Source of the DNA: Actinomycetes bacterium
GTDB lineage: Bacteria > Actinomycetota > Actinomycetes > Actinomycetales > Cellulomonadaceae
Assembly (NCBI GenBank): GCA_021793115.1
Contig: JAJYTJ010000077.1
Span: 1-17,073 of the forward strand
Direction of reading: 5' to 3'
DNA: 17,073 nt
The notes beneath the pieces were generated by a model. The model was given only the letters and a program-made list of their open reading frames with translations. It did no database searches and had not been told where the DNA came from. A program made the translations under genes and the position numbers. Numbering within the stretch: the stretch's first letter is position 1; every line of letters begins with the position of its first letter. Of this stretch, positions 8,685-14,060 are shown in pieces.

Positions 8685-8690
8685 GGCGGG

Positions 8691-8696
8691 TAGCCT
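8691..8696 (+). promoter_or_regulatory. possible -10 of the MgtE-like/Nramp operon
   Basis: TAGCCT, 7 nt after the aminopeptidase stop codon, fits TANNNT. Transcription near 8703 would give a leader of about 297 nt. No convincing -35. Read-through from the aminopeptidase gene is the alternative. Confidence 0.35.
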
Positions 8697-8763
8697 GTGC
8701 GCCCGTGCGGGCACGCCCGCGCAGACCGGACGCAGACGGGCCGACCAGCTGGGGGTGAGCCGC

Positions 8764-8823
8764 ATGGCACCAGGCAGTACACGCAGGGCTCGCCTCGCGC
8801 CGGCCGTCCCGCGGTGCCGCTGA
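8764..8823 (+). CDS. 19-residue upstream ORF (possible leader peptide)
   Basis: ATG at 8764 opens 19 codons, MAPGSTRRARLAPAVPRCR, before TGA at 8821. GGGGGTGA at 8751-8758 lies 5 nt before the ATG, the same SD and spacing as the TetR gene in this window. The peptide has three prolines and six arginines. Codons 5, 6 and 8 are AGT, ACA and AGG, all rare in such GC-rich genomes. It lies 176 bases before the MgtE-like ATG. Proline- and arginine-containing leader peptides sense Mg2+ in the Salmonella mgtA and mgtC leaders; whether this one does is speculation. It may simply be a chance ORF with a chance SD. Confidence 0.4.
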   Translation: MAPGSTRRARLAPAVPRCR

Positions 8824-8949
8824 CCCTCGTCACGGCCGCGTCCCCCGAGCGCCTGGAGTAGCCCTGGCCACGGCGATGCCGCCTGCCGCCTTGCGCGCAG
8901 GGGTGCCGCCCCGTCCCCCCTCTCCCGCGCGTGACCGCGGCGCCAGGCA

Positions 8950-8994
8950 CCTCCCCCGACGCCCGCGCGGCGCGCGCCCGCGCTCGTCGGGAGG
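8950..8994 (+). promoter_or_regulatory. stem sequestering the SD of the MgtE-like gene
   Basis: CCTCCC (8950-8955) is complementary to GGGAGG (8989-8994), the SD 5 nt before ATG 9000. GACG (8958-8961) next pairs with CGTC (8985-8988) after a CC bulge. The GC-rich loop can pair further. In this state the ribosome could not reach the SD, so an antagonist (translation of the upstream ORF, metal or protein) would be needed for expression. Confidence 0.5.
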
Positions 8995-8999
8995 CCCCC

Positions 9000-10355
9000 A
9001 TGTCGGGTTCCGTCCTCGGTTCCGCCCCGCCCGGTCGCCCCGGGCTGCTCTCGCGCGCCCAGCACGGCCCCCAGTCGCTCGCGCTGCGCCGTGAGGTCGC
9101 CGGCGCCCTCGTCTCCGTCGCGGGCCTCGCCGGCCGCCCGGTGCGCGACGGCGACGGCAACGTCATCGGCACGGTGACGGACGTCGTCGTGCACTGGGAC
9201 GCGGGCTACTCGCCCGTCACCGGGCTCATCGTCCGCGTGGGCCAGCGGCGCACGTGGCTGCACGCGGCCGACGTCGTGGCGATCGAGCGGTCCGGGGTCC
9301 GGCTGCGCTCCACCCGGTTCGACCTGCGCGACGTGGTGCGCCGCTCGGGCGAGCTGCAGCTGCTCGCCGACGTCATCGACCACCAGCTCGTGGACGTCCA
9401 GGGCGTGCAGGTGGTGCGGGCCTCCGACCTCTACCTCACGCAGGTGCATGCGGTGTGGCGGCTCGTGGGGGTGGACGTGTCGCTGACGTCGCTGCTGCGC
9501 CGCGCGCTGCCCGGTGGGTTGAGCCGTCGGCCGAGCCCGGGCCTCGTGCTCGACTGGTCCAGCGTGCAACCCTTCGGCGTGCCCGGCGGGTCGGTGCGCC
9601 TGGCGCGCGCGCACTCTGAGCTGCGCCGCATGCGCTCGGCGGACCTCGCCGACCTGCTGGCCACGCTCGGGCGCGCCGAACGGCGCGAGCTGCTCGGCGG
9701 CCTCGAGCCGGGCACCGCCGCCGACGCGCTCGAGGAGATGAACGCGCGCGATCTCAACGACCTCCTGCGGGACGCCCCGGTGGAGCAGGCCGCGGAGCTC
9801 GTCGCGGCCATGGAGGCCGACGAGGCGGTCGAGGCGCTGCGCGAGATGCCACCCGAGGAGCGCGACGAGGTGCTCGACGCGATGCCGGCCGAGCAGCGCG
9901 CCGAGCTGGGCGCGCTGCTGAAGTTCGACGAGGAGTCCGCCGGCGGCGTCATGACCTCGCGGCTGGTGCGCCTGCCGGCCGACGACACGGTGCACGACGC
10001 CGTGGCGGCGGTGCGCCGCCAGGTGCAGGAGGGCGAGACGCCCGCGGGCGTCGTCGTCATCGACGAGCACGGCGCGCTGCTGGACGACGTGTCGTTCGTC
10101 GAGCTGCTCGGGGCCGAACCGGGCACGCCGCTGCGCGCTCTCGTCGGGCCGCCGTGGCCCGTCACCGTCGGCCCGGACGCCGGGCTCGACGAGATCGTCG
10201 AGCGGATGACCGACAACCGTGGCTCGTCGCTGCTCGTCGTCGACGACGCGAACCGCCCCATCGGGCGCATCCTCGCCGACGACGTCGTCGACCTGCTCGC
10301 CCACCAGGGCGAGCGCCGCTGGCCGTGGCAGCGGCCGTCGGGAGGTGCCCAGTGA
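9000..10355 (+). CDS. soluble PRC-barrel/MgtE N-domain/CBS protein, partner of the Nramp-like transporter
   Basis: A 451-residue cytosolic protein built like the regulatory half of the Mg2+ channel MgtE. Two PRC-barrel-like segments (about 40-105 and 118-190) precede an MgtE N domain of repeated Leu/Glu-rich helices (about 205-320), the MgtE hallmark FDEESAGGVMTS, and two CBS motifs (about 322-440). No hydrophobic pore follows; the chain ends QRPSGGAQ. In MgtE the N and CBS domains bind Mg2+ and close the pore, so a sensor or gating role is inferred. The ATG at 9000 has GGGAGG 5 nt upstream; GTG 8931 lacks an SD. The stop overlaps the next GTG by 4 nt (GTGA), coupling it to an Nramp-like transporter. 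A paralogue lies at 12308-13576. Confidence 0.87.
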   Translation: MSGSVLGSAPPGRPGLLSRAQHGPQSLALRREVAGALVSVAGLAGRPVRDGDGNVIGTVTDVVVHWDAGYSPVTGLIVRVGQRRTWLHAADVVAIERSGVRLRSTRFDLRDVVRRSGELQLLADVIDHQLVDVQGVQVVRASDLYLTQVHAVWRLVGVDVSLTSLLRRALPGGLSRRPSPGLVLDWSSVQPFGVPGGSVRLARAHSELRRMRSADLADLLATLGRAERRELLGGLEPGTAADALEEMNARDLNDLLRDAPVEQAAELVAAMEADEAVEALREMPPEERDEVLDAMPAEQRAELGALLKFDEESAGGVMTSRLVRLPADDTVHDAVAAVRRQVQEGETPAGVVVIDEHGALLDDVSFVELLGAEPGTPLRALVGPPWPVTVGPDAGLDEIVERMTDNRGSSLLVVDDANRPIGRILADDVVDLLAHQGERRWPWQRPSGGAQ

Positions 10356-11617
10356 GCACGACGACCACGACGCCGCCGACGCGCCGGCGCACGCGCGTGC
10401 GGATCACGCTCGGCGCGCTGGCCGCCGTCGTCGGGCCCGGCCTCATCGCCGGCCTCTCGGACGACGACCCCGCCGGCATCACCACCTACTCGGTGCTCGG
10501 CAGCAGCTACGGCTACCGGCTGCTGTGGGTTCTCACGGTCTCCACCGTGGCGCTCATCCTGTTCCAGGACCTCGGCGCCCGCATCGGCGTCGTCACCGGG
10601 CAGGGCCTGGCCGGGCTCATCCGGCAGCGCTACGGCGCGCGCGCGGGCGTGCTGTCGATCTCCGCGCTGGTGCTCGCCAACGTCGGCACCACCACCGCCG
10701 AGTTCGCCGGCATCGCGGCGGGCTTCCAGATCTTCCACGTCAGCCGGTACGTCTCGGTGCCGATCGCGGCGGTGCTCGTGTCGGTGCTGGTGCTGCGGGG
10801 CGGGTTCCGGGGCGTCGAGCGCGTCCTGCTCGCGCTCTCGGCGGTCTTCATCGCGTACATCGCCGCCGGCATCCTCGCCAAGCCCGACTGGGGCGCCGCG
10901 CTGGCCGGCACGGTGGTGCCCACGCTGCCGTCAGGCCGCGACGCGGTCCTCATCGCCACGGCGACGCTCGGCACCACGCTGGCGCCCTGGGGTCTGGCGT
11001 TCATCCAGTCCTACGCCGTGGACAAGCGGCTCACGCCGCGCGAGCTGGGCCTGTTGCGCTGGGACGTCATCACCGGCGCGGTGCTCACGGGCGTCATCGG
11101 CTTCTTCGTCGTCGTGGCGTGCGCCGCGACGCTGCACGTGCACGGGCTGACGATCACCAACGCCTCCGACGCGGCCGCCGCGCTCGAGCCGCTCGCGGGC
11201 CGGCTCGCGGCGGAGCTGTTCGCGGGCGGCCTCATCGGTGCCGCGCTGCTCGCCGCGTCGATCCTGCCGCTGTCGACGGCCTACTCGGTGTGCGACTTCG
11301 CCGGCCGGCCCGCGGCGCTGGACGACTCGCCGTCGCAGGCGCCGCTGTTCTACGGCACGTTCGCGGCGGTGACGGTGACCGGCCTGGTGCTGGTGCTGCT
11401 GCCGGGGGTCTCGCTGGTGCCGCTGCTGGTGGGCACGCAGGTGGTCAACGCGGTGCTGCTGCTGCCGCTGCTGGGCTACATGTCCGGCATCGCGCGCGAC
11501 CGGCGGCTCATGGCGGAGTTCACGGCGCCCCGGGCCGTCGCGGCGGTCTACTGGGTGACGATCGCCCTCATCACGGTCTGCATCGTGGCGCTGGGGGTCT
11601 TCTCCGTGCGCCACTGA
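10352..11617 (+). CDS. Nramp-fold divalent metal transporter with non-canonical site (NRMT-like, probable Mg2+)
   Basis: A 421-residue SLC11/Nramp-family membrane protein with about eleven helices. Helix 1 aligns clearly with Nramp (VGPGLIAGLSDDDPAGITTYS) and helix 6 is LGTTLAPWGLAFIQSYAVDK. The metal-binding DPGN becomes DPAG (39-42) and MPH becomes APW (211-213), so the soft methionine, the asparagine and the conserved histidine are lost while the aspartate stays. Loss of the methionine is the hallmark of Nramp-related Mg2+ transporters, which carry hydrated Mg2+ or Mn2+. Mg2+ is therefore my inferred substrate, supported by the coupled MgtE-like gene. The GTG at 10352 follows GGAGG and overlaps the upstream stop. 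The C-terminus ends FSVRH, 18 bp from the convergent stress-protein gene. An Mn2+ role cannot be excluded. Confidence 0.88.
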   Translation: MSTTTTTPPTRRRTRVRITLGALAAVVGPGLIAGLSDDDPAGITTYSVLGSSYGYRLLWVLTVSTVALILFQDLGARIGVVTGQGLAGLIRQRYGARAGVLSISALVLANVGTTTAEFAGIAAGFQIFHVSRYVSVPIAAVLVSVLVLRGGFRGVERVLLALSAVFIAYIAAGILAKPDWGAALAGTVVPTLPSGRDAVLIATATLGTTLAPWGLAFIQSYAVDKRLTPRELGLLRWDVITGAVLTGVIGFFVVVACAATLHVHGLTITNASDAAAALEPLAGRLAAELFAGGLIGAALLAASILPLSTAYSVCDFAGRPAALDDSPSQAPLFYGTFAAVTVTGLVLVLLPGVSLVPLLVGTQVVNAVLLLPLLGYMSGIARDRRLMAEFTAPRAVAAVYWVTIALITVCIVALGVFSVRH

Positions 11618-11635: not shown

Positions 11636-12244
11636 TCAGGAGGCGGGCGGCGTGGGGCCGTCCGGAGGTGCCGGCGGGTACGTCGGCGTGGACGGGGGCG
11701 CGCCGAACGGCGTCGCCGGGGCGGCCGGCGGCGGCGTGGGCGTCGCACCGGGCCACCCCGAGACCACGCCACCGACGGCCGCGAGCATCTGCCGCGCCTG
11801 GGCGGCGTGCTCGGAGGCGCACAGCACCGCGTACGTCGTCGCGACGATCTGGCTGGACGACGTGAAGTCCCTCCGGCCGCGCGTGAGCGAGTAGGTGATG
11901 ATCGAGAACAGCAGCCCGAAGGCGCCGCCGAAGAGCACGGCCGGGATCATGAGGTCGAGGGCCGACGACGAGAACAGCGTGAGGATGAGGCCGACGAACA
12001 GGCCGAACCACGCGCCCGACGCGAACCCGCCGACCGCGACCGACGGGTACGACAGCCGCCGCAGCACGCGCTCGACCGTCTTGAGGTCGCTGCCGACGAT
12101 CGTCACGTGCTGCACCGGGAACTGGTGGTCCGCGAGGTGGTCGACGGCCTTCTGAGCCTCGAGGTAGCTGCTGTACGAGGCCACCGTCTCGCCCTGCGGC
12201 AGGGTGGGCACCTTCGGCACCCGGTTCGCGCTGCTCATGCTCAT
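11636..12244 (-). CDS. general stress protein 17M-like membrane protein
   Basis: A 202-residue protein with a GSP17M (YflT-like) domain followed by membrane helices. The N-terminal part has VASYSSYLEAQKAVDHLAD and FPVQHVTIVGSDLKTVERVL (about 20-65), a ferredoxin-like fold. A glycine-rich hydrophobic pair of helices follows (about 71-120, FGLFVGLILTLF and VLFGGAFGLLFSIITYSL), then a short soluble part and a Pro/Ala/Thr-rich tail (about 165-202). Function is unknown; stress-related membrane protein is inferred from the family. ATG 12244 is chosen because GGAGGA lies 7 nt upstream; ATG 12238 is an alternative. It is divergent, by 63 bp, from the second MgtE-like gene, as Rv1233c is next to Rv1232c in M. 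tuberculosis. Confidence 0.83.
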   Translation of the reverse strand: MSMSSANRVPKVPTLPQGETVASYSSYLEAQKAVDHLADHQFPVQHVTIVGSDLKTVERVLRRLSYPSVAVGGFASGAWFGLFVGLILTLFSSSALDLMIPAVLFGGAFGLLFSIITYSLTRGRRDFTSSSQIVATTYAVLCASEHAAQARQMLAAVGGVVSGWPGATPTPPPAAPATPFGAPPSTPTYPPAPPDGPTPPAS

Positions 12245-12295
12245 GACCAGATCCTCCACCCCGGCGGGGGGCGGTGCCAGGCGCGGACCCGCAGA

Positions 12296-12301
12296 TACGC
12301 T
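12296..12301 (+). promoter_or_regulatory. leaderless -10 of the second MgtE-like operon
   Basis: TACGCT fits TANNNT and ends 6 nt before the GTG at 12308, so the transcript should begin at the start codon. No SD is visible, which agrees. The 63-bp intergenic stretch must also hold the promoter of the divergent stress-protein gene. Confidence 0.5.
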
Positions 12302-12307
12302 GTCGCG

Positions 12308-13576
12308 GTGAGCTCGGTCGGCACCAGGGTCTTCGTGGCGCGCCTCGCCGGCACCGCCGTCTTCGACCCGATCGGGGACCAGGTGGGCCGGGTGCGCGAC
12401 GTCGTGCTGCTCGAGCACGCCACGGCGGCGCCGCGTGCCGTGGGCCTCGTCGTGGAGGTGCCCGGCAAGCGCCGCATCTTCCTCCCCCTCACGCGCGTGA
12501 CGAGCATCGACGCGGGCCAGGTCATCAGCACGGGCCTGCTCAACATGCGCCGGTTCGAGCAGCGCCCCACCGAGACGCTCGTCGTCGGCCAGCTCCTGGA
12601 GCGCACCGTCACCCTCGTCGACGGCTCCGGTCAGGGCACCGTCGAGGACGTCGCGATCGAGTACCAGCGCGGCAAGGAGTGGGTGGCCACCAGGCTCTCC
12701 GTCCGCTTCAAGGCCGGCGGCGGCCTGCTGCGGCGCCGCGGCACCACCCAGACCGTCGCCATCGCCGACGTCACCGGGCTGTTCCAGCACGCGCCGACGC
12801 AGGGTGCCGAGCTGCTGGCGGAGCGGTACGAGGACATGAAGCCGGCGGACGTCGCCGACGAGCTGCACGACATGGAGCGCCGGCGCCGGTTCCAGGTCGC
12901 CGCGGCGCTGTCCGACGAGCAGCTGGCCGACGTGCTCGAGGAGCTGCCGGAGGACGACCAGGTGGAGATCCTCGCCGGCCTGGAGATCGACCGCGCCGCG
13001 GACGTCCTGGAGGAGATGCAGCCCGACGACGCCACGGACCTGCTGCGCGAGCTGCCGGACGAGCGGAAGAACGAGCTGCTCGCCGCGATGGAGCCCGACG
13101 AGGCGGCCGACGTGCGCCGCCTGCTGGCCTACGAGGACCGCTCCGCGGGTGGCCTCATGACCACCGAGCCGGTGATCCTCGGCCCCGAGACGTCGATCGC
13201 CGCGGCCCTCGCCCACGTTCGCCGCCAGGACCTCAACCCGGCGCTGGCCTCCACGGTCTTCGTCGTGCGGCCGCCGCTCGAGACGCCGACCGGGCGGTTC
13301 ATCGGCGTGGTCCACCTCCAGCGGATGCTCCGGCACCCCCCGCACGAGTCGATCGGGCAGATCGTCGACCGGGACGTCGAGGCGCTGCGGCCGGACAGCC
13401 CGCTGTCGACCGTCGCGCGCGAGCTCGCGACGTACAACCTCCTCATGCTGCCGGTGCTCGACGAGGAGCGGCGGCTGCTGGGGGCCGTCTCGGTCGACGA
13501 CGTGCTGGACCACCTGCTGCCCGAGGACTGGCGCGAGGCGGACGACGATCCGGCGAACGGGGCCCACCATGGCTGA
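12308..13576 (+). CDS. PRC-barrel/MgtE N-domain/CBS protein (Rv1232c-like)
   Basis: A 422-residue soluble paralogue of the protein at 9000-10355. PRC-barrel-like segments at about 8-75 (GTAVFDPIGDQVGRVRDVVL) and 90-170 precede the MgtE N domain (about 175-285, with repeated LEELPEDDQVEIL and LLRELPDERKNELL helices), the hallmark YEDRSAGGLMTTEPV, and a CBS pair (about 290-415). No membrane helices follow. The acidic helices resemble those that bind Mg2+ in MgtE, so a divalent-metal sensing role is inferred. The GTG start is set by a leaderless -10 and by the beginning of the PRC domain; the frame is open further upstream only as a shadow. The end overlaps the DUF1003 gene by 8 nt, indicating an operon. 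Position matches Rv1232c. Confidence 0.88.
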   Translation: MSSVGTRVFVARLAGTAVFDPIGDQVGRVRDVVLLEHATAAPRAVGLVVEVPGKRRIFLPLTRVTSIDAGQVISTGLLNMRRFEQRPTETLVVGQLLERTVTLVDGSGQGTVEDVAIEYQRGKEWVATRLSVRFKAGGGLLRRRGTTQTVAIADVTGLFQHAPTQGAELLAERYEDMKPADVADELHDMERRRRFQVAAALSDEQLADVLEELPEDDQVEILAGLEIDRAADVLEEMQPDDATDLLRELPDERKNELLAAMEPDEAADVRRLLAYEDRSAGGLMTTEPVILGPETSIAAALAHVRRQDLNPALASTVFVVRPPLETPTGRFIGVVHLQRMLRHPPHESIGQIVDRDVEALRPDSPLSTVARELATYNLLMLPVLDEERRLLGAVSVDDVLDHLLPEDWREADDDPANGAHHG

Positions 13577-14060
13577 CCGCCTCGACCAGCCCGTGGGCTC
13601 CCGCCGCGCCTGGCGCCCACGGATGGACCCGGACAGCGTGGGGCGCGGCGCGGAGGGCTTCGCCCGGTTCATGGGCACCGGACGGTTCCTGCTCTACATG
13701 ACGGCGTTCATCATCGTCTGGATCATCCTCAACGTCGTCGGCCTGCTGGGACGCTGGGACCCGTACCCGTTCATCCTGCTCAACCTGTGCTTCTCGGTGC
13801 AGGCCTCGTACGCGGCGCCCCTCATCCTGCTGGCGCAGAACCGGCAGGACGACCGCGACCGCGTCGCGCTGGAGCAGGACCGGCAGCAGGCCGAACGCAA
13901 CCTCGCGGACACCGAGTTCCTCGCGCGTGAGATCGCCGCGCTGCGGATCGGGCTGTCCGAGGTGGCCACGCGCGACTTCGTCCGCTCGGAGCTGCGCGAG
14001 CTGCTGGAGGACCTGCGCCGCGAGGACGACGAGGCCCGCGAGCTCGAGGTGGCCGACTGA
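13569..14060 (+). CDS. DUF1003 family membrane protein
   Basis: A 163-residue protein with the DUF1003 signature: two membrane helices (about 40-60, LLYMTAFIIVWIILNVVGLL, and 67-90) joined by WDPYPFILLNLCFSVQASYAAPLILLAQNRQDDRDR. The C-terminal half (about 95-155) is charged and predicted coiled coil (EQDRQQAERNLADTEFLA), probably cytosolic. Function is unknown. The ATG lies inside the upstream MgtE-like gene (8-nt overlap), so the two are probably co-translated and may act together. In M. tuberculosis Rv1231c is next to Rv1232c in the same way. A membrane anchor or channel partner for the metal-sensing protein is an inference from this pairing. Confidence 0.88.
   Translation: MADRLDQPVGSRRAWRPRMDPDSVGRGAEGFARFMGTGRFLLYMTAFIIVWIILNVVGLLGRWDPYPFILLNLCFSVQASYAAPLILLAQNRQDDRDRVALEQDRQQAERNLADTEFLAREIAALRIGLSEVATRDFVRSELRELLEDLRREDDEARELEVAD

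Follow-up and report, generated by a model that had tools for sequence, protein, structure and literature searches.

We have analysed a 17,073-base stretch of actinobacterial DNA (contig JAJYTJ010000077.1 of assembly GCA_021793115.1; hereafter the window) in which the gene of a soluble MgtE-like protein overlaps that of an NRMT-type, Nramp-related transporter. The window looks Cellulomonas-like: of two public contigs found, the better one comes from a Cellulomonas sp. 73-92 MAG, with 92% protein identity. The pair is real and conserved. In our view both genes are, more probably than not, translated as a single unit, which combines uptake of Mg2+ (possibly also Mn2+) by the NRMT-type carrier with a cytosolic Mg2+ sensor of the MgtE type acting in trans. 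Gating of the carrier by the sensor is, we infer, the reading that best fits the sequences. The pair comprises the following features:

9000..10355, + strand: PRC + MgtE_N + CBS protein of 451 amino acids, pore-less, an MgtE-like putative sensor (Pfam, homologue length, AlphaFold2 model)
9126..9308, + strand: PRC-barrel domain (Pfam PF05239, 23.9 bits, cut-off 21.2; beta strands in the AlphaFold2 model)
9630..9935, + strand: MgtE intracellular N domain, MgtE_N (PF03448, 79.7 bits, cut-off 25.9), carrying the equivalents of TtMgtE E59, D91 and D95
10158..10301, + strand: CBS domain, second of a pair (PF00571, 37.5 bits, cut-off 24), carrying the equivalents of TtMgtE D226, D247 and D250
10341..10345, + strand: GGAGG, a ribosome-binding-like site 5' of the transporter start (sequence)
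10352..11617, + strand: NRMT-type Nramp-related transporter of 421 amino acids with a GTG start (PF01566, 269.7 bits; nearest solved relative EleNRMT, 7qia)

The sensor stop and the transporter start share four nucleotides (GTGA, 10352-10355). The open reading frame of the sensor opens at 8931, but the ATG at 9000 is favoured as the start: it is the likely one, as it gives the length of the nearest homologue, P0004 (451 residues), and with this start positions 8685-8999 are intergenic. The pore domain PF01769 has no match in open reading frame 8931-10355 up to an E-value of 0.1, and no transmembrane segment shows up in the hydropathy profile of the protein; having neither, it is not an MgtE channel. 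The channel model TIGR00400 scores it at 81.2 bits, under its cut-off of 232.75. The claim of the original prediction, a pore-less soluble protein with MgtE_N and CBS domains whose gene overlaps that of an Nramp-fold transporter by four nucleotides, is thus borne out by Pfam, by hydropathy and by the sequence itself.

What the protein does have is the cytosolic MgtE_N and CBS part of MgtE, as seen by both Pfam and structure matching. Pfam recognises only one CBS domain. The AlphaFold2 model (predicted local distance difference test score, pLDDT, 77.5; predicted template modelling score, pTM, 0.65) matches MgtE cytosolic domains, including the Mg2+-bound structure 2yvy (template modelling score 0.80 by target), a match which suggests that CBS is present as a pair whose first half has diverged. 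Four aspartates, D242, D274, D428 and D431, are invariant in the window sensor and 49 chosen homologues. In TtMgtE the regulatory sites are formed by D91 and D247 (Mg4), D226 and D250 (Mg5), D95 (Mg6) and E59 (Mg7), according to PMC5882242. At positions 59, 91, 95, 226, 247 and 250 the window reads D, D, E, R, D and D, five of the six being acidic and the D226 acid lost. The protein is a putative Mg2+ sensor of the MgtE type.

Compared with solved structures, the transporter is closest to EleNRMT (7qia; E-value 2.1e-91 over 398 residues), the next best match having an E-value of 1.2e-28. Its metal-site motifs are DPAG (D39-G42) and TTLAPW (T208-W213), and the NRMT signature DxxG - TxxA/T is present as D39xxG42 and T208xxA211. 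The marks of NRMTs given in PMC8806188 are DxxG and TxxA/T, Trp in place of His, Glu 133 of helix 3 and Gln 379; in a gapless alignment with an offset of 16, D39, G42, T208, A211, W213, E117 and Q363 of the window are the NRMT-marking residues. The transporter had been predicted to have the Nramp fold with an altered metal site, and this holds: because the marking residues correspond, the altered site is that of the NRMT branch, known for carrying Mg2+. On a FastTree tree of 133 rows, from which EleNRMT itself is absent although its near-copy L070 is included, the window falls within a starred set of five NRMT-type rows. The NRMT label, which was set by motif, needs three changes on this tree, and a single origin of the label is therefore not established by it.

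The pairing was surveyed across 198 Actinomycetota genomes, in which PF01566 and PF03448 were located. An entered MgtE_N match lies within 8 kb of 37 of the 145 Nramp matches above cut-off. We motif-typed the 136 Nramp matches of at least 90 bits; the nine weaker ones, which are partial or distant, were set aside beforehand, and none of these nine has an entered MgtE_N match within 8 kb. An MgtE_N match within 4 kb is found at 37 of 50 NRMT-type loci versus 0 of 86 other Nramp loci (Fisher p 1.2e-22, a value that ignores kinship among loci); the latter divide into canonical MPH loci (0 of 29 linked) and remaining types (0 of 57). With this typing, pairing exceeds chance and is seen in the sample at NRMT-type loci only, and the contrast with canonical Nramps that the original prediction proposed to count comes out at 37 of 50 against 0 of 29. 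The motif classes were fixed after the table had been seen; the strict published DxxG-TxxA/T signature splits the loci nearly alike (35 of 49 linked versus 2 of 87), with L046 and L060 as the two exceptions. Helix 1 of these two NRMT genes reads GASG instead of DxGG, apparently without the metal-binding Asp, and their linked partner is pore-dead. The linked state needs seven changes on the 133-row tree; given these seven, and the three changes of the NRMT label, the counts are not independent events.

For nine of the 13 NRMT loci that have no linked sensor, a long pore-dead MgtE_N protein is encoded elsewhere in the genome, so for these nine the notion that an unlinked NRMT implies a genome with no sensor was rejected. 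Every genome with one of the nine unlinked long partners has an unlinked NRMT, too, and these partners may represent one lineage. When channels (by the PF01769 places entered) and DUF1003-linked matches are set aside, 45 of the 49 NRMT-bearing genomes have a strong MgtE_N match; the four without one are G040, which has a truncated partner, G060, G123 and G152. Mg2+ riboswitches (RF00380) have 18 matches in the 198 genomes: 12 at NRMT loci, ten of these with a linked sensor, two at MgtE channels and four elsewhere. The NRMT genes of L099 and L106 have the riboswitch and no linked sensor, and are extended by about 150 residues without a Pfam match after the Nramp domain.

Linked partners come in two forms: 22 of the 37 are short and pore-less, and 15 are long (frames of 607-681 amino acids), with extra C-terminal hydrophobic segments. 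The expectation that all NRMT-linked partners would be pore-less was accordingly rejected, since these 15 keep a degenerate MgtE membrane part. Pfam scans of four long partners found PF01769 at 37.8 bits in L046 (a degenerate pore) and at 26.3 bits, near the cut-off, in L035, and no match to it in L040 and L056. At the position of the pore aspartate D432 (a number inferred by alignment with 2yvx), all 27 MgtE channels have Asp and none of the 24 long partners does, be they linked (15) or unlinked (nine); the GGN stretch is found in 20 of 27 versus 0 of 24. The 27 channels, from the same genome set, are 27 of 29 chosen, part of 54 channel-type matches. We read the partner as an MgtE channel that has probably been turned into an accessory regulator. 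The short partners of L070, L071, L077 and L078 have one hydrophobic segment after the CBS domain, a possible membrane anchor; of their NRMTs only that of L070, which has a linked partner, was compared with EleNRMT, to which it is very close (E-value 2.2e-240).

A search with joined pairs also retrieved natural single-chain fusions of sensor and NRMT, P0124 and P0125 (882 amino acids, clean). P0126, P0127 and P0128 contain garbled, apparently frame-shifted stretches and are not counted as clean fusions; they belong to the same lineage, since the junction region is common to all five. P0129 and P0187 were rejected as clean fusions because of similarly garbled, apparently frame-shifted stretches.

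The Mg2+-site acids are largely kept across partner forms. At E59, D91, D95, D226, D247 and D250 an acid is present in 22, 18, 21, 5, 21 and 17 of the 22 short partners; in 13, 15, 11, 4, 15 and 15 of the 15 linked long partners; in 7, 9, 9, 0, 9 and 9 of the nine unlinked long partners; and in 20, 24, 19, 21, 27 and 26 of the 27 MgtE channels. At D214 and E216 the acid is found in 25 and 27 of the 27 channels, in 24 and 24 of the 24 long partners, and in 8 and 14 of the 22 short ones.

The pairing itself has been known since 2014 and is not new. Shin et al. (PMC4072509) reported that most members of the NrmT group adjoin a gene homologous to the N-terminal cytoplasmic domain of MgtE, and speculated that this neighbour serves in cytoplasmic feedback regulation or as a metal chaperone. 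The original prediction was made without knowledge of an experimental description of such a pair; that paper both described the pairing and included one co-expression experiment. Our search for literature joining NrmT, MgtE and magnesium, with subscription journals mostly outside its coverage, returned only Shin et al. and the 2022 eLife paper (PMC8806188), the main text of which does not mention CBS, operon, accessory or genomic context. We found no paper that has the PRC barrel together with MgtE. Apart from the control of some NRMT genes by riboswitches, we also found nothing on how NRMT activity avoids overfilling the cell. No published description was found of the pore-dead series, the sensor-NRMT fusion or the parallel pairing with DUF1003.

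How might the sensor act? At high cytosolic Mg2+, the ion would bridge the N and CBS domains at sites resembling Mg4, Mg6 and Mg7 in MgtE; the bridged sensor would compact and dock on the cytosolic face of the NRMT, perhaps via PRC, and once docked would slow transport. At low Mg2+ the sensor would loosen and transport would go on. The assignment of PRC as the docking domain is a guess; the domain is also present in the DUF1003-linked paralogue of the window.

Several observations weigh against gating by Mg2+. In the experiments of Shin et al. (PMC4072509), A. capsulatum NrmT fully rescued a Mn2+-transport mutant and seemed to be mainly a Mn2+ carrier, co-expression of its MgtE-like gene brought no further gain in rescue, and the C. 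acetobutylicum carriers were functional without the MgtE-like protein. In our view the co-expression result is not decisive on gating, because a gate that shuts at high Mg2+ is not expected to aid rescue at low Mg2+. RF00380 has no match anywhere in the window at E <= 1 (Rfam). The Mg5 acid at D226, replaced by R in the window, is kept by few partners of any form (5 of 22 short, 4 of 15 linked long, 0 of 9 unlinked long) as against 21 of 27 channels. Four genomes, G105, G126, G148 and G154, lack an NRMT and yet have an MgtE_N match that does not belong to a channel and has no DUF1003 or NRMT link; in the first three this match shares its contig with a channel gene, and in G154 it lies at a contig end. 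The model of the fused P0124 has a pTM of 0.46 and gives no confident placement of the sensor on the carrier (in the alignment used, A6, NRMT-only rows fill about 91% of the NRMT half). Finally, within the window's own subclade the upstream partner of L069 and L201 consists of PRC and a degenerate MgtE_N and lacks CBS (the loss is judged by Pfam in L069, by profile and eye in L201), and no partner was found at subclade loci L072, L081 and L200.

This DPAG/TTLAPW subclade is rare: window-type NRMTs (E <= 1e-70) occur in three of 297 genomes of the order, and the full sensor is found in the window, in L001/L076 (one genome) and in L002. The reduced partner of L069 overlaps its carrier by four nucleotides, and PRC appears to outlast the sensor part in both L069 and L201. 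Conservation beyond close relatives, on which the original prediction depended, is seen across the phylum sample, whereas in the window's subclade only some members have the complete sensor.

A rival account is that the MgtE-like protein is chaperone-like and serves NRMT assembly, membrane placement or metal hand-over without Mg2+-dependent gating. A metal chaperone is the alternative that Shin et al. themselves named, some partners carry hydrophobic tails, and since PRC is kept where CBS is lost in L069 and L201, the partner could act there as a scaffold that senses nothing. We nevertheless regard this account as unlikely: NRMT genes were active in B. subtilis without the MgtE-like protein (PMC4072509), EleNRMT was assayed in proteoliposomes (PMC8806188), and conservation of the N and CBS acids would be left unexplained.

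It is distinctly improbable that the sensor reads another signal, such as Mn2+ or, via CBS, adenine nucleotides, and sets transport accordingly. The rescue of the Mn2+-transport mutant by a carrier with an MgtE-like neighbour speaks for it, as does the binding of ATP by the MgtE CBS domain (PMC5529423), but the Mg2+-site residues are mostly kept, and Mg2+ riboswitches occur at ten NRMT loci that have a linked sensor. As to the window's subclade, the pair there could be a decaying relict, with a carrier that functions by itself and a sensor on its way out. The scarcity of window-type NRMTs in the order, and the presence of the full sensor at some subclade loci next to CBS-less or absent partners at others, speak for such decay; against it stands the invariance of D242, D274, D428 and D431, which makes the full-length form of the sensor look constrained, and we hold this to be the least probable of the accounts considered. 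Gating by an MgtE-type Mg2+ sensor is the reading we prefer.

The window encodes a second pair of related architecture:

12308..13576, + strand: second PRC + MgtE_N + CBS protein, a paralogue (Pfam on open reading frame 11807-13576; the start is our choice)
13569..14060, + strand: DUF1003 protein of 163 amino acids (PF06210, 124.1 bits), overlapping the paralogue end by eight nucleotides

The DUF1003 protein has hydrophobic stretches at residues 34-64 and 68-88. In the 198-genome survey, 27 of the 131 strongest MgtE_N matches have an entered DUF1003 match no more than 1.5 kb away, and 27 of the 61 DUF1003 matches entered, of 65 listed, have a sensor within that distance, always upstream (one of these 27 cases is a fragment at a contig end). 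All 24 sampled DUF1003-linked sensors have an acid at E59, D91, D95, D247 and D250, and nine have one at D226. P0001-like proteins are present in 230 of the 297 genomes of the order (E <= 1e-20); the matches listed, G001 aside, are about 27-34% identical, and so these proteins are probably of the DUF1003-linked sensor type. No paper was found on DUF1003 together with magnesium, nor one naming two of Rv1232c, Rv1231c and MgtE together. DUF1003 may take part in Mg2+ homeostasis.

More tentatively, a channel family may have given rise to the regulatory subunit of an unrelated carrier, losing the pore residues but keeping the sensor in pore-dead membrane, pore-less soluble and, in one lineage, NRMT-fused forms; the PRC-MgtE_N-CBS module would also serve DUF1003, which would in that case be a so far hidden part of the Mg2+ homeostasis machinery of actinobacteria. 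Pore-dead MgtE partners would then clearly exemplify the conversion of a channel into a regulator, and the pairing with DUF1003 gives a starting point for work on a family that has no assigned function. Should the partner be a gate, the work on EleNRMT, whose structure is solved, was probably done on a carrier lacking its regulatory subunit, because its very close relative L070 adjoins such a partner.

The window can be set beside four known or parallel systems. As in the NrmT/NRMT loci of Shin et al. (PMC4072509), the two partners are adjacent, the A. capsulatum carrier lying downstream of the MgtE-like gene as in the window, and a feedback role has likewise been proposed; those authors described a homologue of the MgtE cytoplasmic domain, with PRC barrels, pore-dead partners, fusions and unlinked partners going unmentioned in the parts of the paper covered here, and the window has no riboswitch, an element that only a subset of NRMT genes carries. 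The DUF1003 pair shares the PRC + MgtE_N + CBS architecture and the overlap with the downstream gene, but its partner is of a family without assigned function and not an NRMT. EleNRMT (PDB 7QIA; Ramanadane et al. 2022, PMC8806188) resembles the window transporter in its fold, helix-1 Asp and Gly, helix-6 Thr and Ala, Trp replacing His, helix-3 Glu and Gln 379, while the window transporter sits in another part of the NRMT branch. With the channel TtMgtE the window sensor has in common the N domain, the CBS pair and most of the Mg4-Mg7 acids; it differs in stopping shortly after CBS, in being pore-less, in its added N-terminal PRC and, if it is active at all, in working in trans.

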